Assembly: GCA_019746355.1 (NCBI GenBank)
Contig: JAIESC010000241.1
Coordinates: 1 to 24,577, forward strand
Length of the DNA: 24,577 bases
Direction of reading: 5' to 3'
DNA from: Xanthobacteraceae bacterium
Lineage (GTDB): Bacteria > Pseudomonadota > Alphaproteobacteria > Rhizobiales > Xanthobacteraceae
Shown here: one piece after another, positions 6,602 through 15,441 of the stretch
Numbering within the stretch: the stretch's first letter is position 1
Layout of the letters: every line of letters starts with the position of its first letter
Made by a program: the position numbers and the translations under genes
Notes under the pieces: model-generated
Seen by the model: the letters and a program-made list of their open reading frames with translations, nothing else
What the model was told of the DNA's origin: nothing
Database searches by the model: none

Positions 6602-6710
6602 GTCATTCCGGGGCGCTCGCTAAGCGAGCGAGCCCGGAATCCAGACAAGCAGGGATTTTTGCTGCAACTGGATTCCGGGCTCGCGTGCTGCGCACGCGCC
6701 CCGGAATGAC
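6602..6710. repeat. Double-hairpin GC-rich intergenic repeat
   Basis: The outer arms GTCATTCCGGGGCG (6602-6615) and CGCCCCGGAATGAC (6697-6710) are exact inverted repeats. Each half also folds alone, with ATTCCGGG and CCCGGAAT arms around CTCGCT/AGCGAG and CGCGTG/CACGCG stems. It lies between two convergent genes, where it could act as a two-way terminator. A related copy is at 15333-15441. Confidence 0.85.
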
Positions 6711-6733
6711 GCCGGAGGACTATTGCACGCCAC

Positions 6734-7689: not shown

Positions 7690-8763
7690 ATGGCATATCT
7701 CAGGGCGATGCGTCCCGAAGAACTGCTGACGCCGACGCCGTCGGGCGTCTGCTGCCCGGCCGGCGGCTTCCATATCGACCCGACGCGGCCGGTGGACAAG
7801 GCCGTGATCACCCACGGCCATTCCGACCATGCGCGGCCCGGCCACGGCGCGGTGCTGGCGACGCAGGAGACGCTCGACCTGATGCGGCTGCGCTACGGCG
7901 ACAATTTTGCCGGCACCACGCAGGTGGCGAAGCCCGGCGAGACGCTGAAGCTCGGCGGCGCGGAGGTCACGTTCCATCCGGCGGGGCACGTGCTCGGCTC
8001 CGCGCAGGTGGCGGTGGAGAGCAACGGCTGCCGGATCGTCGCCTCGGGCGACTACAAGGACGTGGCCGATCCCACCTGTGCGCCGTTCGAGCTCGTGCCC
8101 TGCGACGTGTTCATCACCGAGGCGACGTTCGGCCTGCCAGTGTTCCGCCACGGCGATCCGCGAGGCGAGATCGCGCGGCTCCTGCATTCGGCGTCGGTGT
8201 TTCCCGAGCGCGCGCACCTCGTCGGCGCCTATTCGCTCGGCAAGGCACAGCGGGTCATCGCGCTCATCCGTGGCGCGGGCTACGACAAGCCGATCTATCT
8301 GCACGGCGCGCTGGAGAAGATCACGCACTACTACGTCAGCCGCGGCGTCGACCTGGGCGAGCTCCGCCCGGTGCGCGACGCCGACAAGGCGGAGCTCGCC
8401 GGCGCGGTCGCGCTCTGCCCGCCCTCCTCGCTCCAGGATATCTGGACGCGGCGCTTTCCCGACCCGGTGCCGTGCTTCGCCTCCGGCTGGATGCGGGTGC
8501 GGGCGCGCGCGCGGCAGCGCGGGGTGGAATTGCCGCTGGTGATCTCCGACCATGCGGACTGGGACGGGCTCACCAAAACCATCGCCGCGACCGGCGCGTC
8601 CGAAATCTGGGTGACGCACGGCCAGGAGGACGCGCTGGTGCATTGGAGCCGGTCGCGCGGCCTGAAGGCGCGGCCGCTCGCCATCGTCGGCTATGGCGAC
8701 GAGGACGAAACCGACGGCACCACCGATGGCGTGACCGGCGAGGCTCCAGTAAGCCCGCCATGA
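7690..8763 (+). CDS. Ligase-associated DNA exonuclease (MBL-fold, SNM1-like)
   Basis: This protein of 357 residues (352 from the next ATG at 7705) is a metallo-beta-lactamase-fold nuclease of the type encoded next to bacterial ATP-dependent DNA ligases. The metal-binding signature HGHSDHARPGH is near residue 40. Later metal or catalytic blocks include HPAGHVLGSAQV, ASGDYKD, TEATFGLPV, and SDHADWDGL. It probably trims DNA ends before ligation. Either ATG 7690 or 7705 may be the start: 7705 has CAGGG close upstream, and 7690 has no clear site. The stop overlaps the ligase start as ATGA, which points to translational coupling. Confidence 0.88.
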   Translation: MAYLRAMRPEELLTPTPSGVCCPAGGFHIDPTRPVDKAVITHGHSDHARPGHGAVLATQETLDLMRLRYGDNFAGTTQVAKPGETLKLGGAEVTFHPAGHVLGSAQVAVESNGCRIVASGDYKDVADPTCAPFELVPCDVFITEATFGLPVFRHGDPRGEIARLLHSASVFPERAHLVGAYSLGKAQRVIALIRGAGYDKPIYLHGALEKITHYYVSRGVDLGELRPVRDADKAELAGAVALCPPSSLQDIWTRRFPDPVPCFASGWMRVRARARQRGVELPLVISDHADWDGLTKTIAATGASEIWVTHGQEDALVHWSRSRGLKARPLAIVGYGDEDETDGTTDGVTGEAPVSPP

Positions 8764-10466
8764 ACAAATTCGCCGAGCTTCTCGACCGCCTCGCCTACGA
8801 GCCAAGCCGCAACAACAAGCTGCGGCTCATGGCGGATTATCTGCGGACCACGCCGGATCCCGAGCGCGGCTATGCGCTGGCGGCGCTGACCGGCGCGCTG
8901 TCGTTTCAGCACGCCAAGCCCGGTGTGATCCGCGCGCTGATCGCCGAGCGGGCCGATCCGGTGCTGTTCGAATTGTCCTACGACTATGTCGGCGATCTCT
9001 CTGAGACTGTTGCGCTGATGTGGCCGGCCGACCCGTCGCAGAAGCCCAACGCCACGCCGAGCTTGTCCGAAGTCATCGAAACACTGTCCACGCTCGGCAA
9101 GACGCAGCTGCCGAAGCAGCTTTCGCAGTGGCTCGACGGGCTCGACGAGAACGGCCGCTGGGCGCTGCTCAAGCTCGTCACCGGCGCACTCCGCATCGGC
9201 GTCTCCGCGCGGCTCGCCAAGACCGCCGCGGCCTCGCTCGGCGGCAAGGAGCCGAACGAGATCGAGATTCTGTGGCCGGGAGTCGCGCCGCCCTACATCG
9301 AGCTGTTTGCATGGCTCGAAGGCCGTGCAGAAAAGCCCGAGACGCGCGACCTCGCGCCGTTCCGGCCGGCGATGCTGGCGCATGCGATCGAGGAGACCGA
9401 TTTCTCCGCGCTCGAGCCGAAGGACTTCATCGCCGAGTGGAAATGGGATGGCATCCGCGTGCAGGCCGCCGCGGCAGGCGGCGGCGAAGACAGGATAGCG
9501 CGGCTCTATTCGCGCACCGGCGAGGACATCTCAAAAAGCTTCCCCGACCTCACCGAGGCGCTGCGCCTGCCCGGCTCGCTCGACGGCGAGCTGCTGATCG
9601 TGCGCGACGGCCGCGTGCAGTCGTTCAACGTGCTGCAGCAGCGGCTCAACCGCAAGGCCGTCACGCCGAAGATGCTCACGGAGTTTCCGGCGCACCTGCG
9701 CGCCTACGACCTGCTGGTCGACGGCGAGGAAGACCTGCGCGACCGGCCGTTCGCCGAACGGCGCGAGCGGCTGGCCGCGTTCGTGGCGAAGCTGAACGAT
9801 CCGCGGATCGATCTCTCGCCGGCCATCGCCTTCGACACCTGGGAGGCGCTGACCGCGGCGCGCGCCGATCCCGCACAGGCCGGCGCGGGCGCCGATGCCG
9901 AAGCGGTCGAAGGCGTGATGCTCAAGCGCCGCGACTCGACCTATGTTCCCGGTCGGCCGAAAGGCCCATGGTGGAAGTGGAAGCGCGATCCGTTCACGGT
10001 CGACGCGGTGCTGATGTACGCCCAACGCGGCCACGGCAAGCGCTCGTCGTACTATTCCGACTACACGTTCGGCGTCTGGAAGAACGGCGAGAGCGGCGAT
10101 GAGCTGGTGCCGGTCGGCACGGCCTATTTCGGCTTCACCGACGAGGAATTGTTGCAGATCGACCGCTTCATCCGCAACAACACCATCGAGCGGTTCGGCC
10201 CGGTGCGCGAGGTCACGCATGAGGCGGAAAAAGGTCTGGTGTTCGAGGTGGCGTTCGAGGGCCTGCAGCGCTCGACGCGGCATAAATCCGGCGTCGCCAT
10301 GCGCTTTCCCCGCATCAGCCGGCTGCGCTGGGACAAGCCGCCGCGCGAGGCCGACCGGATCGATACGCTGGAAGCCATGCTGTCCAAGATCGAAAGCGGA
10401 CGCGGCGTTTCCCCGATACCTCCAAAGGCTGCGAAGAACGCAAGGAACGCCTATCTCCGCGGATAG
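8760..10466 (+). CDS. ATP-dependent DNA ligase, cisplatin-damage-response type
   Basis: This 568-residue protein is a bacterial ATP-dependent DNA ligase. The N-terminal DNA-binding domain spans about residues 1-190. The adenylation motif is EWKWDGIR with Lys228 as the nucleotidyl acceptor. Further motifs are YSRTGEDIS (III region), EGVMLKRRDS (IV) and WWKWKRDPF (V). The OB-fold part ends near FPRISRLRWDKPPREADRI. The start ATG overlaps the exonuclease stop. The last about 27 residues, after MLSKIE, look like a non-conserved tail that ends YLRG and then TAG. That TAG lies in the inferred 3' end of an antisense group II intron, so the native C-terminus may have been different. Together with the exonuclease, helicase and PdeM it completes the known four-part repair set. 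Confidence 0.92.
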   Translation: MNKFAELLDRLAYEPSRNNKLRLMADYLRTTPDPERGYALAALTGALSFQHAKPGVIRALIAERADPVLFELSYDYVGDLSETVALMWPADPSQKPNATPSLSEVIETLSTLGKTQLPKQLSQWLDGLDENGRWALLKLVTGALRIGVSARLAKTAAASLGGKEPNEIEILWPGVAPPYIELFAWLEGRAEKPETRDLAPFRPAMLAHAIEETDFSALEPKDFIAEWKWDGIRVQAAAAGGGEDRIARLYSRTGEDISKSFPDLTEALRLPGSLDGELLIVRDGRVQSFNVLQQRLNRKAVTPKMLTEFPAHLRAYDLLVDGEEDLRDRPFAERRERLAAFVAKLNDPRIDLSPAIAFDTWEALTAARADPAQAGAGADAEAVEGVMLKRRDSTYVPGRPKGPWWKWKRDPFTVDAVLMYAQRGHGKRSSYYSDYTFGVWKNGESGDELVPVGTAYFGFTDEELLQIDRFIRNNTIERFGPVREVTHEAEKGLVFEVAFEGLQRSTRHKSGVAMRFPRISRLRWDKPPREADRIDTLEAMLSKIESGRGVSPIPPKAAKNARNAYLRG

Positions 10467-10570
10467 GGGTCGGGAAGGCGTTAGCCTCCCCGCCCTCCGA
10501 ACCGTGCTCTCCAGTTGGTGGTTTCTTCACCGAGACTGTCTCGCTGTTTGCCAGGCTGCATGTAGGGCGA
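10463..10570 (-). mobile_element. 3' remnant of a group II intron (damaged domain V and domain VI)
   Basis: Read on the minus strand, the end of domain V (ACGGTTC, 10505-10499) is followed by a domain VI hairpin: stem GGGGAGGC, loop TAAC, and GCCTTCCC. A bulged A at 10470 lies seven bases from a CCCCTAT end at 10463, which fits the branch-point A and the AY 3' terminus of group II introns. Upstream is a GAAGAAACCACCAACTGG stretch of the kind that precedes domain V. The 5' strand of domain V is almost absent: GAGAGC runs directly into ACGGTTC, so the core hairpin appears deleted and the ribozyme should be dead. The left edge is fairly firm; the right edge is approximate. Confidence 0.7.
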
Positions 10571-10867
10571 ACAACCCGGCATCCGCGAAGTCGGTACTAG
10601 CTAGTTCGGCCGCTGAGCGGGCCGACAGAGACAGCTTTTCAGTGTTCTCGCCTATCGCCCGACAGGCGGGTGGTCAATCCCGGGACACATTCCGCATACG
10701 CGCGCGTGGAAGAATGCAATTATGAGAAGGAGAGCTGTTGCCCTTCCAAAGGCCAATGTTCCCAACGTAGGACGTAGATTGCTTCGATCGATTGAGCGCT
10801 GCGCCCTAGGCTCATCTTTGATGATCTGGCGCAATGCATAAGTTGGAAGCGTTGCCGCTATTGGGGC
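10571..10867. other. Gene-free stretch between intron remnant and LysR gene
   Basis: I see no supported gene. Short minus-strand frames exist (for example 10652-10834), but they have no motif or ribosome-binding site. Part of this DNA could be remnant domain IV of the intron, and part could be the downstream flank of the cassette. I could not place the boundary. I searched for remains of the reverse transcriptase C-terminus by reading and found none. Confidence 0.4.
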
Positions 10868-11812
10868 TCACCGACGCTGTCTCGTTGTCGCGGTTCCGTT
10901 GCGATAGGCAGCGGCGGATACCCGCACTTCCTCAACCAGAATTCGGATGGCGTCAGAGGATGTGTGATCGGCCCGTTGTGTGATGCCGACAGGTCCGCAA
11001 GTCGTTTTGGTATCGATGTTGAGCCGGACAAGCGAGCCGCATCTGATATCTCGTGCGACGACGCCAAGCGGCACACACCAGACGGCACTGCTTTTCAGAA
11101 CAAGAGCGCGCCCGAAAGACGAGTCGATCGTTTCGATCACTGGGTCGGCCAGGGCAAGCCCGGAAGACAAGAAAAACTCGTCCGCAATGGCCCGAATCCG
11201 CGTTCCCGCGTCCGGCAGGACAAGTGGCAGCCCGCGGAGATCTGTCAGTGAAGGATTTGCTGCGTGTAGCGGGTGCCCCGGGCGCGCAACGAAAATCAGA
11301 GATTCCGTGTAGAGTTGCTCGAACGTCAGGCATTGCATGTCGCTCGGCTCTCCCAGACGCCCTATTACGAGATCAAGAACTCCCTGCCGCAAACTCGCCA
11401 GAAGAAAAGCGTTGCTGCCCGCTTGAATCCTAAGCCGTGCCATCGGAAAAGCCGTAACAAAACGACGTACAGCGGATGGCAACACGGTTGCGCCGACATT
11501 AGGCAAGGCACCGACGACAATAACCGGCGCGTCCGCCCGTTGCATCCGGGCGATGCTGTCCAACCCTTCCTGAATCGTACGCATGCTGCTTGTGGCGTAG
11601 CGCAGCAGAATCTGTCCCGAAGCGGTCAGCAGAATGCCTTGGCGCGTGCGTTCGACCAACTGTTGGCCGATGATCGTTTCCATCTCGGCCAGAATCTTGG
11701 TGACAGCCGGCTGGGTCACCCCGAGTTTGCCGGCGGCGCGCACGAGGCTCCCACCCTCTGCGATGGCGAGCAGCGTTTGTAAATGGCGCAGCTTGAGACG
11801 GTCAGATCGCAT
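10868..11812 (-). CDS. LysR-family transcriptional regulator
   Basis: This 314-residue protein has the LysR winged helix-turn-helix at its N-terminus (HLQTLLAIAEGGSLVRAAGK then LGVTQPAVTKILAEME, residues about 10-50) and an effector-binding domain after it. The ATG at 11810-11812 gives the usual LysR spacing to the helix-turn-helix; a GTG at 11837-11839 would add nine residues. Neither has a strong ribosome-binding site. It is the last of three co-directional genes behind the dioxygenase and the solute-binding protein, with 55 bases to the TctC stop. It probably controls that cassette in response to the substrate or a product. Base composition is visibly less GC-rich than in the flanking chromosome. 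Confidence 0.85.
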   Translation of the reverse strand: MRSDRLKLRHLQTLLAIAEGGSLVRAAGKLGVTQPAVTKILAEMETIIGQQLVERTRQGILLTASGQILLRYATSSMRTIQEGLDSIARMQRADAPVIVVGALPNVGATVLPSAVRRFVTAFPMARLRIQAGSNAFLLASLRQGVLDLVIGRLGEPSDMQCLTFEQLYTESLIFVARPGHPLHAANPSLTDLRGLPLVLPDAGTRIRAIADEFFLSSGLALADPVIETIDSSFGRALVLKSSAVWCVPLGVVARDIRCGSLVRLNIDTKTTCGPVGITQRADHTSSDAIRILVEEVRVSAAAYRNGTATTRQRR

Positions 11813-11867
11813 GGACTCGACTAACTTAGCCCAATGCACGGCAAACGCGAAGGCTCGGGCGCCAGCG

Positions 11868-12845
11868 CTATTCTACCTTGAGACCCGCTTTCCGGATCAC
11901 CTGACCCCATCGCCCGACTTCGTGGCGAATGAGACCTCCGAAATCCGCAGGCGAGCCGATGTCGACCGTCATGCCCTGTTTTGAAAGCTTCGCGGCGATA
12001 CTAGGATCGCGAAGGATCGTCGAAACCACCTGATTGACGCGGGCCACGATCGCTGCAGGCGTGCCGGCTCGTGCGACAAGGCCGAACCACGGTGCAACGT
12101 CGACGGCGGGCCAGCCAAGCTCTGCGACGGTTGGTATGTCCGGCAACGCTGGGAGACGATGCGTGTTCGGCGTTGCAAGGGCGCGGAGCCGACCATCTGC
12201 AACCTGGGCCTGCGCGGAAGGCAACTGCATGAACATCGCGTCCACATTGCCGCTGAGCAGGTCCACCAGAGCGGGGGCGACACCGCGATATGGGACGTGC
12301 GTCATGTCCACGCCGGCACTCTGCCGGAACAGTTCGAAGGCCATGTGCGCCCCTGTGCCGACGCCGCCCGATGCAAAGCGAATGGCGCCAGGTTTCGTCC
12401 GCGCAAGTGCGACAAGGTCGGCGAGGGTCTGCGCCGGAACCGAGGGATGGATCACGAGAACAGTCGGAGACCAAGCCAGGAATGATACGGGTGCGAAATC
12501 GCGCAGCGCATCGTAATTGGTGCGGCCGCCCAGCAGCGTCTGGTTCACGGATAGGTCGATCGCCACAATGAGGAAGGTGTAGCCGTCGGCGGGAGCATTC
12601 GCGACCATTCCCGTTCCGATCGAACTCGCACCACCGGGACGGTTTTCGACAACGATTTGCTGACCAACGATCGGACCCATACGGTCGGCGATGAGCCGAC
12701 CGAGGAAATCTGTCACGCTGCCCGGTGGATAAGGGACGACAATGCGGATCAGCCGCGTCGGCCAGTCATCCTGAGCATATGCGAGACGCGCCGCACCCGG
12801 CAACGCGCCTAAGGCGAAGCAAAGGGCGGTGCGCCGGCAGATCAT
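11868..12845 (-). CDS. Bug/TctC-family tripartite tricarboxylate transporter solute-binding protein
   Basis: This 325-residue protein is a periplasmic binding protein of the Bug/TctC family, which collects carboxylates and aromatic acids for TctAB-type transporters. It has a signal peptide (LCFALGALPGAARLAYA) and the family pattern WPTRLIRIVVPYPPGSVTD, ENRPGGASSIGTGMVA and GRLRALATPNTHRLPALPD. The start ATG is preceded by GAGGGACACC. It begins nine bases after the dioxygenase stop, so the two are co-transcribed. No TctA or TctB membrane gene is present in the window, so it is an orphan, as Bug proteins commonly are. It likely delivers the dioxygenase substrate, but the ligand is unknown. Confidence 0.85.
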   Translation of the reverse strand: MICRRTALCFALGALPGAARLAYAQDDWPTRLIRIVVPYPPGSVTDFLGRLIADRMGPIVGQQIVVENRPGGASSIGTGMVANAPADGYTFLIVAIDLSVNQTLLGGRTNYDALRDFAPVSFLAWSPTVLVIHPSVPAQTLADLVALARTKPGAIRFASGGVGTGAHMAFELFRQSAGVDMTHVPYRGVAPALVDLLSGNVDAMFMQLPSAQAQVADGRLRALATPNTHRLPALPDIPTVAELGWPAVDVAPWFGLVARAGTPAAIVARVNQVVSTILRDPSIAAKLSKQGMTVDIGSPADFGGLIRHEVGRWGQVIRKAGLKVE

Positions 12846-12854
12846 GGTGTCCCT

Positions 12855-13838
12855 CTAGGCCTGATGCTGACGCCGTGCGCTTGTTTCCCGGAATTTGCTG
12901 ATAGGGGGCATCAGATAACGGCGCAGATCCGCTTCATCCGCTGCAGGCCCATCCGAGATCGGCGACGTACCGGCGACCGTGACACGTAACAGGTGCCGAC
13001 GCTGCGGATAGTAATCATGCAACGCCGAGTGCTGTGTCGATCGGTTGTCCCAAACGACCAGCATATTTGGCTGCCAGCGATGGCGGTACTGGTATTCATG
13101 TGTCGTGGTTTTGCGGAATAACATGTCGAGGACGGTACGGCTTTCGTCGTCCGCCATTCCTTTAATGCGAAGGGTGAACTGCGGATTGACAAAGAGCACC
13201 TTGCATCCAGTCTCGGGATGGACTGTTACGACAGGATGCGTCACGGGAGGATACATCTCTTCATAACGACGAAGGCTCTCTACGCCCTGGCGGTCTTTGC
13301 CGAATAGGTCACGAAACGGCTTGAAGTCATGTATCGCCTCTAAACCTGAAAGAAAACGCTGCATGCGATCCGACAGCCCTGCGTAAACGGCGCTCATGCT
13401 GCAAAACGCGGTATCTCCTCCCACGTCGGGCATGATTTTCGAAAGCAGGCAGGTTGCAAAAGGCGGTGCCGCACGGAACGTTTCATCGGAGTGCCAGATA
13501 TCGGTTGCGGCCGGCGGATTGCCTTCCTTGTTGTCAAAGACAATCAGCTCAGGATCGGTTGCAGAATTGGTGGAGAAAGGATGTACGCTCAATGGTCCAA
13601 GATAACGGCCGAAGCGCTTCAGGTCTTCCGCTTCTAAGTTTTGGTCCGGAAAGGCCAGCACGGCATGTTCGGCGAGCGTGCGTCGCAAGGCGTCAACGGT
13701 CGAGTCATTGAGATCTTGTCTGAGATCGATTCCGGTCACCTCGGCGCCGAGAAATGCCCCCAAGCGTCGGACTCTAAACGCTGCGGGCGTCACTTTGGCT
13801 GATGAAACCCTGGCATCCAAAGACACACCCATCGCCAT
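12855..13838 (-). CDS. TauD/TfdA-family Fe(II)/2-oxoglutarate-dependent dioxygenase
   Basis: This 327-residue protein belongs to the TauD/TfdA family, which oxidises sulfonates, phenoxyacetates and related compounds with 2-oxoglutarate and oxygen. The facial triad is visible: His116 and Asp118 in DIWHSDETF, and His270 in DNRSTQHSALHDYY. The following Arg-rich QRRHLLRV would bind 2-oxoglutarate. The start ATG has a strong ribosome-binding site, AGGAGGAATAGTC. It leads the cassette with the Bug protein and LysR regulator. Wobble positions are much richer in A and T than in the flanking genes (one 60-base line in this gene counts 33 G+C, one in the MATE gene counts 39), which fits horizontal transfer. 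The true substrate cannot be told from sequence. Confidence 0.88.
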   Translation of the reverse strand: MAMGVSLDARVSSAKVTPAAFRVRRLGAFLGAEVTGIDLRQDLNDSTVDALRRTLAEHAVLAFPDQNLEAEDLKRFGRYLGPLSVHPFSTNSATDPELIVFDNKEGNPPAATDIWHSDETFRAAPPFATCLLSKIMPDVGGDTAFCSMSAVYAGLSDRMQRFLSGLEAIHDFKPFRDLFGKDRQGVESLRRYEEMYPPVTHPVVTVHPETGCKVLFVNPQFTLRIKGMADDESRTVLDMLFRKTTTHEYQYRHRWQPNMLVVWDNRSTQHSALHDYYPQRRHLLRVTVAGTSPISDGPAADEADLRRYLMPPISKFRETSARRQHQA

Positions 13839-14101
13839 GACTATTCCTCCTGACGGATCCTGGCAAAAGTTGTTTGACTGTCGCTATTGTGATCGTTAGC
13901 AGGATCGGATTGCGCCAGAAATTGAAATCTCGTCAGGCTCGTATTCCAACTAGTTATATGGGCGCCGAGGCTCTAGATTTTGAGCTGATCGAGTTTTTCA
14001 AAATCCCATTCAAAGGCGATAGGTCGCCCCGCCCTCTTCCGAGCGGTTCGAAAGCGAGCGCTCTAGCGCGTTCGGCTTACTGCGGTTGCCTCGCGGTTGC
14101 G
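13839..14101. other. Leader and right flank of the TauD cassette
   Basis: This AT-richer stretch lies upstream of the dioxygenase and must hold the cassette promoter and any LysR operator, though I could not assign a confident -35/-10 pair. Near 14030-14100 it becomes GC-rich and runs into the IS66 fragment. I see no gene in it. Confidence 0.4.
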
Positions 14102-14185
14102 ATCAGCCTGCATTGTCTCACGGACCAACGCTGCCAAGCCCTCGGCTCCTTTACGGAAGTCGACCGGCTTGGTTGCGACGAGCCT
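14102..14185 (-). pseudogene. IS66-family TnpB (Orf2) fragment
   Basis: About 28 codons on the minus strand read RLVATKPVDFRKGAEGLAAL followed by VRETMQAD. This is the N-terminal block of the IS66 accessory protein TnpB, whose family pattern is VATRPVDFRKGAEGLAALV followed by a DPFSG block. The fragment lacks the first residues and stops matching right after QAD. It is joined to the reverse-transcriptase fragment at about 14183-14186, where both sequences share AAGGC or a similar short stretch. It is a relic of an insertion sequence and cannot function. Confidence 0.75.
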
Positions 14186-14906
14186 TCCACCGGCGTCCAT
14201 CTGTCCAGACCTTGCGGGATGTCGGCCTTCAACCAGTCCTGGATGAGGTCGAGCACGCGGCCATCGCTGATCCGCTCTTCGACCTGCGCCATCAGCCGCC
14301 CGTGCGGGATCGTATCGAAGTACGACCGTAGGTCGCATCCACCACATGGGTGTAACCTTCCTTGAGCAGCCGATCGACCTCGCGCAGTGCATCGTGACAC
14401 CCGCGTTCCGGACGGAAGCCATAGCTGCCGTCGCAGAACCCGTTCTCAAAGATCGGTTCAATCACCAGCCGGACCGCCTGCTGGACGATGCGGTCCTTGA
14501 CCGTGGGGATCCCCAGCGGCCTCGTCCGACCATCGCCCTTCGGGATCTCGACCCATCTGACCGCTTGCGGGCGGTAGCTGCCCTCCCGCAGCGCCGTCGA
14601 AAGCTCCAGCAGATACACGTCTGCCTTCGCCGCGAACCGATCCACGCTCTGCCCGTCCACGCCTGCCGCGCCTTTGTTCGCCCGGACCTTCGTCCAGGCG
14701 AGCTCCAGCGTGGCCGGCGCGTACACCTCGTCGATCAGCGAGTACCACTTGCCGCCTTTGACGCCGTTCTCCAGCGCCGACAGCATACGTTCCGTCCACA
14801 CCGCGGCTTCGACCCGCGCCCAGTTGCGACTGGCGGTTGGCATCTCTGCACCTTGCTTAGCCTCGTCGACACTGCCGGTGCTGCTCTGCTCTGGCATGGT
14901 CGTCAC
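14183..14906 (-). pseudogene. ltrA: Group II intron reverse transcriptase/maturase, frameshifted and truncated
   Basis: The minus strand encodes the N-terminal part of a group II intron reverse transcriptase: KVRANKGAAGVDGQSVDRF, EIPKGDGRTRPLGIPTVKDR, VIEPIFENGFCDGSYGFRPE. The frame breaks near 14333-14335, where a single G appears to be missing (GATGCGACC where GATGCGGACC would keep frame). It continues in the next frame as LRSYFDTIPHGRLM, then QGLDRWTPVEG. The match then ends and IS66 sequence follows. The catalytic YADD block, thumb and maturase domain are gone. I took the GTG at 14904-14906 as start because AGGAAGG lies upstream; an ATG at 14895-14897 is also possible. It is certainly non-functional. 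Confidence 0.88.
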
Positions 14907-15293
14907 GCATCCACCTTCCTGCCCGCCTTCCCTCGGCACGGCTTTGCTAGCCGTGCTTTCCGCGGCTCATCGCCGCTGCAGTACTATGCGGGCTCTGACT
15001 CCTGCCGCGCTTCGCCCGCGCGACAGGTCTCTCCGTTCCATCAGACCGGCCGTCCGGACATCCCGCCCCCAACCACGTCGTGCAGCCCGAACGTCACGTG
15101 CCTATCACCTCGTGCGCTCGGTCGAGGCCACTCCGCCCCAGGCTTCGCTATGAATGAGCAAGCTCGCCGCCCACACACCGCCGAAACGGGTTCGTCATCC
15201 TGCGGGCTATCCGTTCGCCTCCGGCTGCTTCCCACCCCGCCTCGCGGCGACGCAGTTGCCTTCGGCTACATGTGCGGTGACTTCACATGGCAC
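14907..15293 (-). mobile_element. 5' ribozyme part of a group II intron
   Basis: This GC-rich stretch upstream of the reverse transcriptase start holds no gene. On the minus strand it has several hairpins and the block CAGGAGTCAGAGCCCGCATA followed by GTACTG, which resembles the ribozyme domain I-IV leader of bacterial group II introns. GCACGGCTTTGCTAGCCGTGC just before the reverse transcriptase is a perfect-looking hairpin. A possible 5' end is GTGCC at 15293, which only partly fits the GTGYG consensus. The outer limit is therefore approximate. Confidence 0.6.
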
Positions 15294-15332
15294 AGACTCC
15301 CACTATGCTGACCAGCAGACTGACGGACGCAC

Positions 15333-15441
15333 TCATTCCGGGACGCCGCGAAGCGGCGGGCCCGGAATCCAGAGCCAAGCTGAGATATCCACTGTGGCTC
15401 CGGATTGCGGACTCACGCGCTTCGCGGCGCCCCGGAATGAC
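15333..15441. repeat. Second copy of the GC-rich double-hairpin repeat
   Basis: The left half pairs ATTCCGGGACGCCGC with GCGGCGGGCCCGGAAT around a short loop. The right half pairs imperfectly around ACGCGCTTCGCG and ends CCCCGGAATGAC. Ends and layout match the repeat at 6602-6710. It lies upstream of the DUF6460 gene, just outside the intron. Confidence 0.8.

Follow-up and report, generated by a model that had tools for sequence, protein, structure and literature searches.

A gene block lodged in the remains of a group II intron beside a palindromic repeat in a Xanthobacteraceae contig

Features of the locus

We analyzed a 24,577-nt stretch, the whole of which is called the window here, from contig JAIESC010000241.1 of a Xanthobacteraceae bacterium (GenBank assembly GCA_019746355.1). 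Between a palindromic repeat and an ATP-dependent DNA ligase gene, the window holds two ends of a group II intron, and between these ends lie a fragment of an IS66-family tnpB gene and genes for a TauD/TfdA-family dioxygenase, a Bug (TctC-type) solute-binding protein, and a LysR-type regulator (Table 1). The initial annotation of the locus had read it as one intron interrupted by an acquired catabolic cassette, with loss of the middle of the intron, and our comparisons with related loci support that reading.

The two intron ends that it described, on the minus strand and in correct order, proved real on alignment with relatives. The 5′ part, which it placed at 14183–15293, is present, with borders that had to be redrawn, the outer one by 39 nt. 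Its domain V/VI-like 3′ end at about 10463–10570 also stood, except that this part starts at about 10600 and contains a domain V that is not intact. Three features are new here: a frameshift in the reverse transcriptase (RT) gene at about 14337, C-terminal codons of the intron-encoded protein (IEP) at the 3′ end, and the 79-bp tnpB fragment.

Table 1. Features of the intron locus, in minus-strand order (window coordinates)
Feature	Coordinates	Strand	Evidence
Interspersed palindromic repeat, 5′ exon end	15333–15441	.	Inverted arms 15327–15355/15418–15446, 90% complementary
Intron 5′ part (5′ end GTGCG, ribozyme 5′ domains, N-terminal IEP/RT)	14173–15332	-	Relatives' alignment, RVT_1
IS66-family tnpB internal fragment, 79 bp	14101–14179	-	84.8% to annotated IS66 tnpB, Methylocystis sp. 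MJC1
TauD/TfdA-family dioxygenase gene	12855–13838	-	PF02668 2–267/267
Bug (TctC-type) solute-binding protein gene	11868–12845	-	PF03401 3–274/274
LysR-type regulator gene, PcaQ-like	10868–11839	-	PF00126 and PF03466; TIGR02424 PcaQ 322.8 bits, cutoff 303.8
Stretch between LysR and intron 3′ part	10601–10867	-	Without plasmid match
Intron 3′ part (final IEP codons, domain V with 22 nt missing, domain VI, CCCTAT end)	10463–10600	-	Relatives' alignment
ATP-dependent DNA ligase gene	8613–10466	+	TIGR04120 835 bits, residues 51–590; ORF end

Both ends belong to one intron

Alignment confirmed that the window holds one group II intron on the minus strand, running from 15332 (GTGCG) to 10463 (CCCTAT) with its middle lost. 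A GUGYG-type start and a 3′ domain V/VI with a consensus end are both present. In the window every Rfam family stays below its gathering score, the group II models giving 18.1 and 17.6 bits, so relatives were needed to prove the intron. All six relatives scanned pass one model: RF00029 (domain V/VI; cutoff 40) is passed by L085, L086, L084, and L082 with 40.7–54.9 bits, and RF02001 (D1–D4; cutoff 32) by L081 (41.8 bits) and L083 (34.4 bits).

The initial annotation had proposed checking whether both ends hit the same intron, and they do. Two relatives, L084 and L085, hold whole, uninterrupted introns of 1872 and 1845 nt between aligned ends, and their open frames, 511 and 486 codons long, carry RVT_1 and GIIM domains. 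L084 matches the window at 15290–14173 (81.5% identity) and 10600–10506 (85.3%), and L085 at 15339–14173 (74.7%) and 10590–10454 (68.9%). In the multiple alignment, identity over the 5′ part is 82.0% for L084 (1154 columns), 74.7% for L085, 63.0% for L081, and 62.7% for L083; over the 3′ part it is 85.7% for L084 (98 of 138 columns, its slice having ended before the end of the intron), 77.5% for L085 (138 columns), 69.3% for L081, and 66.4% for L083. The rank order of the four relatives compared is thus identical for both parts.

The protein remnants tell the same story. With the L081 IEP as query, residues 30–186 match at 14807–14334, residues 186–240 at 14337–14173 in another frame, and residues 422–445 at 10589–10518 (E = 0.011), so that the surviving pieces (30–240 and 422–445) are collinear and do not overlap. 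The 3′ part therefore carries the last ~24 IEP codons together with domain V/VI; a gappy alignment to the relatives may extend it to 10627–10660.

Matches to the 5′ part occurred in 21 of 296 family genomes, mostly short and partial, with L084 (82%) and L085 (75%) the closest; seven of the 30 family loci listed were compared closely (L084, L085, L086, L087, L090, L105, and L106). The 5′ end gave four short, weak matches in 397 genomes of the order, and comparisons were for this reason drawn from the family-level set. The 3′ end was found in none of 12 relatives' genomes. The 120 records listed in a plasmid search included Paraburkholderia and Cupriavidus introns in which ltrA is annotated (L081–L083).

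Two unrelated intron remnants, the alternative raised in the initial annotation, are disfavoured, since both ends fall in the same intron and a relative has the empty site described below; two different intron types were rejected because the same introns match both ends. A closer rival supposes two separate insertions of one intron type, which met or lay on either side of the cassette until deletions removed all but the 5′ part in one copy and the 3′ part in the other. Such introns may be multiple per genome, as in G080 and G124 with two places each, and just one end per copy need survive. Against this stand the collinear, non-overlapping IEP remains, the like ranking of four relatives by both parts, and the outer flanks, which when joined reproduce the empty site; we regard a double insertion as improbable.

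Borders and the empty site

Aligning the 5′ ends with 10 relatives placed the intron start at 15332, where copies read GTGCG, or GTGTA in the betaproteobacterial ones. Upstream of this point the relatives diverge, except for a TGA common to several; about 20 nt upstream are common to three betaproteobacterial copies among themselves. The intron is antisense to the flanking ligase gene, and the exon junction reads GGAATGA followed by CCGCGGAGA.

A contig from a Xanthobacteraceae metagenome-assembled genome (L001) is syntenic with the window, with a ligase 94% identical and DNA about 90–95% identical in the main blocks, and its site is empty. When the window flanks are joined at 15333 and 10462 they read GGAATGA-CC and match L001 across the junction. 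The initial annotation had proposed looking for an empty site with a join at 15294, next to its 5′ border of 15293; that join was rejected with a score of 325, against 410 for 15333 and 405 when the 3′ side was shifted by one base. L001 has four extra bases a few positions past the junction, and its genome (G001) gave no match to the intron 5′ part or 3′ end.

A survey of 80 ligase loci placed the 3′ end of the ligase and the next gene 77–400 bp apart on the same strand in 55 cases; the two matches lay elsewhere or inverted in 12, and one side was absent in 13. In the DNA fetched around each ligase, not one of the 80 gave a match at E ≤ 1e-3 to the cassette or to either part of the intron.

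The model match suggests that the true start of the window ligase is at about 8763. Its stop, at 10464–10466 in the region 10455–10466, is a TAG that the intron 3′ end provides when read on the opposite strand. In the one relative compared, L001, the ligase stop lies four codons earlier, right after the residues NA, and the window gene has lost that stop.

Damage to the intron

Compared with six aligned relatives, domain V of the window copy lacks 22 nt, all of them distal in the hairpin. The RT gene is frameshifted at about 14337, and, as initially annotated, the C-terminal portion of the RT is missing from the 5′ part. IEP residues ~240 to ~421 in L081 numbering are gone, including the YADD motif (placed by eye) and GIIM (341–412), so that the frameshifted residues 30–240 and residues 422–445 are all that was matched of the RT/maturase. 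In L084 coordinates the gap runs from 2636 to about 3166, a loss of ~530 bp; trusting the alignment at 10627–10660 makes it somewhat smaller, and the loss is put at roughly 500–530 bp. Given the domain V deletion and the RT frameshift, this copy is expected to be incapable of splicing or moving, even with help in trans; to judge from its sequence, it is an inactive remnant of the group II family.

The insert

The lost IEP sequence is replaced by about 3.57 kb that begins with the IS66 tnpB scar adjoining the RT gene and continues with the TauD, Bug, and LysR genes. RT homology ends at 14173 and tnpB homology starts at 14179, an overlap of 7 nt (14183 and 11 nt when measured against L147); so short an overlap would be expected of illegitimate joining. 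Of 23 matches listed among family genomes, seven cover the tnpB fragment over its full length. Facing the other junction, the stretch at 10601–10867 gave no plasmid match at E ≤ 1, and against one IS66 region it matched only at E ≥ 0.12.

The three genes are co-directional, as initially described, and cover their Pfam models nearly in full. The TauD-family protein scores under the NCBIfam taurine dioxygenase cutoff (251 vs. 313 bits), and the Bug protein has no NCBIfam match. The lower GC content ascribed to the cassette is clear at third codon positions (GC3), with 0.60–0.69 in the three genes vs. 0.83–0.88 in six flanking open reading frames; total GC is also lower (0.56–0.63 vs. 0.62–0.70), with the qualification that Bug (0.631) overlaps one flanking frame (0.623). 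A weak Rfam match to the Guanidine-III riboswitch at 12782–12820 on the plus strand (19.8 bits; cutoff 36), antisense to the start of Bug, was taken as chance.

The source of the cassette was not found among family genomes, which give partial matches, or plasmids, which give one 123-bp match. Cassette matches occur in 129 of the 296 family genomes, the ten best being to TauD alone at 65–70% DNA identity, and around the TauD matches of six family loci, the 6–12 kb examined contained neither a Bug nor a LysR homologue. In a protein collection searched with TauD only, the closest other protein among the matches listed is 82% identical. Four of the 120 listed rows name an organism, all Betaproteobacteria at 70–73% identity, among them Pigmentiphaga.

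The record of the TauD protein itself (P0001) places it on a 365,233-bp contig. This speaks against an assembly chimera of unrelated repeats, which might be suspected where the intron and IS66 are both repeated sequences and the contig was judged from its assembled sequence. The outer borders agree with the empty site in L001, which further argues against a chimera, and we give that explanation very little credence.

The position of the insert invites another explanation, in which the TauD–Bug–LysR genes were once domain IV cargo: they took the place of the IEP in an intron whose ribozyme was still functional, the intron was mobilised by a trans-acting IEP, and domain V was lost later, leaving the window copy as a fossil of a hairpin-targeting intron. 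The insert does occupy the IEP position in sense orientation, the 5′ ribozyme region is retained in one long match to L084, and one relative (L086) has most of its IEP deleted with domain V intact. Yet domain V of the window copy is broken now, where splicing with cargo would demand a working one, some 210 codons of the RT persist along with a C-terminal stub, and an IS66 scar marks the junction. Nor was a second copy seen in the 296 family genomes, where the best matches and the six TauD loci show the gene without its partners. We judge such cargo highly improbable, both as an explanation of the locus and as its history; if it were true, introns of this kind would be vehicles for metabolic genes.

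The initial annotation also remarked that intron-borne or intron-nested metabolic cassettes are unusual; an intron-borne origin is not supported here. With domain V broken, much of the RT lost, and an IS66 scar at one junction, the cassette appears to have come later, as a passenger of an intron in decay, and its genes would be buried in the intron rather than carried by it.

The insertion target

The palindromic repeat at the 5′ exon end has relatives in L001, L007, L019, L027, and L070 and at 6618–6715 of the window. Its 34 intron-proximal nt (ATTCCGGG...CCCGGAAT, minus strand) fold as a hairpin that ends 2 nt before the intron 5′ end. Its folding energy is −23.4 kcal/mol, a value reached by 0.35% of 2000 random positions in an anchored-hairpin test.

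The window copy thus lies directly after a stem-loop, and its relatives give a mixed picture. When the anchored-hairpin test was applied to 11 5′ exons including that of the window, five fell at ≤5% and six at <8%; the L106 and L087 exons in this set have one hairpin in common. Hairpins were not above chance in L085 (19%), L086 (31%), and three betaproteobacterial copies (41–51%). Two cruder tests were applied to the same number of exons: a 45-nt energy test placed 3 of 11 at ≤5%, with the window at 1.2%, and a stem-length test placed 4 of 11 at ≤5%, with the window outside those four at 7.3%. The interspersed palindromic repeat family (6618–6715 and 15333–15441) is possibly a general target of these introns.

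Intron class and known systems

Insertion after hairpins is described as a habit of group IIC (bacterial class C) introns and of neighbouring IEP types (PMC7923331, PMC8919778, PMC4424553). The window copy resembles group IIC introns in its position right after a strong stem-loop. Its relatives may do so in their length of 1845–1872 nt and in an RT-maturase with RVT_1 and GIIM as the only Pfam matches, no endonuclease domain appearing in any of the three scanned; the nearest solved structure, both for the window RT piece and for the L084 IEP, is the GsI-IIC RT.

Two features differ. Domain V reads GAGAGC, with AGAGC in the window and six relatives including L082; by our own placement the triad is AGC, whereas the triad described for IIC is CGC (PMC7923331). 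The window hairpin, moreover, is an interspersed palindrome and not a terminator or attC site. Because of the AGC triad we name the intron IIC-like only, a name that would fit the hairpin-targeting habit.

Decayed and fragmented group II introns are known from rhizobia (PMC5894124). One of them, FRE652 of Sinorhizobium meliloti, is likewise a truncated intron that persists in an alphaproteobacterium with most of its IEP gone; it keeps domains I–III and part of domain IV, whereas the window copy keeps both ends with a gene block in the gap. One group II intron divided by a transposase is mentioned in PMC8919778 and resembles the window in being one intron split by later mobile DNA; the window differs in holding metabolic genes and an IS66 scar and in having lost intron sequence. 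Among the open-licence papers listed, as judged by titles and the openings of abstracts, none describes a bacterial intron with a metabolic cassette inside it.

A history of the locus

Very probably, a single IIC-like retrointron inserted after the palindrome and was then broken, its middle being replaced by foreign DNA. Comparison with related sequences shows the single intron, its borders, the empty site in L001, the loss of the middle, the presence of the insert, and the breakage of both domain V and the RT.

The events may have run as follows. A hairpin-targeting, IIC-like group II retrointron would have inserted antisense to the ligase gene, immediately after an interspersed palindromic repeat, and the copy would then have decayed. 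Illegitimate recombination may have fused the RT gene with a piece of IS66 tnpB; it may also have brought in, or left behind, the ~3.57 kb with TauD, Bug, and LysR at the cost of roughly 500–530 bp of IEP sequence. The three genes are presumably expressed from their own promoter as a small catabolic unit, with the remnants of the intron inert.

Several points weigh against this history. A pair of insertions of one intron type, one after the other and with a deletion afterwards, could leave an identical map. The empty site depends on one close relative, L001, and the palindrome before the junction shows several insertions and deletions between L001 and the window. The plasmid and IS66 comparisons found no identifiable mobile remnant at the second junction (about 10600), so the proposed mode of transfer depends on one side only. 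From the source genome itself, the evidence is this one assembled contig.

Together with the empty site in L001, the locus shows how a retrointron that inserted next to an interspersed palindrome can turn into harmless ground on which foreign genes settle. This corrects the tempting view of an intron that carries a metabolic cassette, and makes the locus a clear but ordinary case of a genome burying a broken mobile element.

Related introns elsewhere

L086 holds, at 509–1304, a related intron of ~796 nt with its IEP mostly deleted and a domain V that scores 54.5 bits in Rfam (cutoff 40). It is possibly an ORF-less intron (one lacking the open reading frame) that moved in trans; a run of A at its junction may indicate an assembly problem.

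On plasmid pMTS3 of Cupriavidus sp. P-10 (L083, 112–5752), a related intron with annotated ltrA lies between Bug and LysR genes. The Bug proteins there are only 28–41% identical to that of the window, and the neighbourhood is for this reason probably due to chance.

Two contigs of one genome, L087 and L106 (G124:C55 and G124:C49), both begin ~110 nt inside the same intron, with an identical hairpin and different flanks, a pattern as expected when repeated introns break an assembly.

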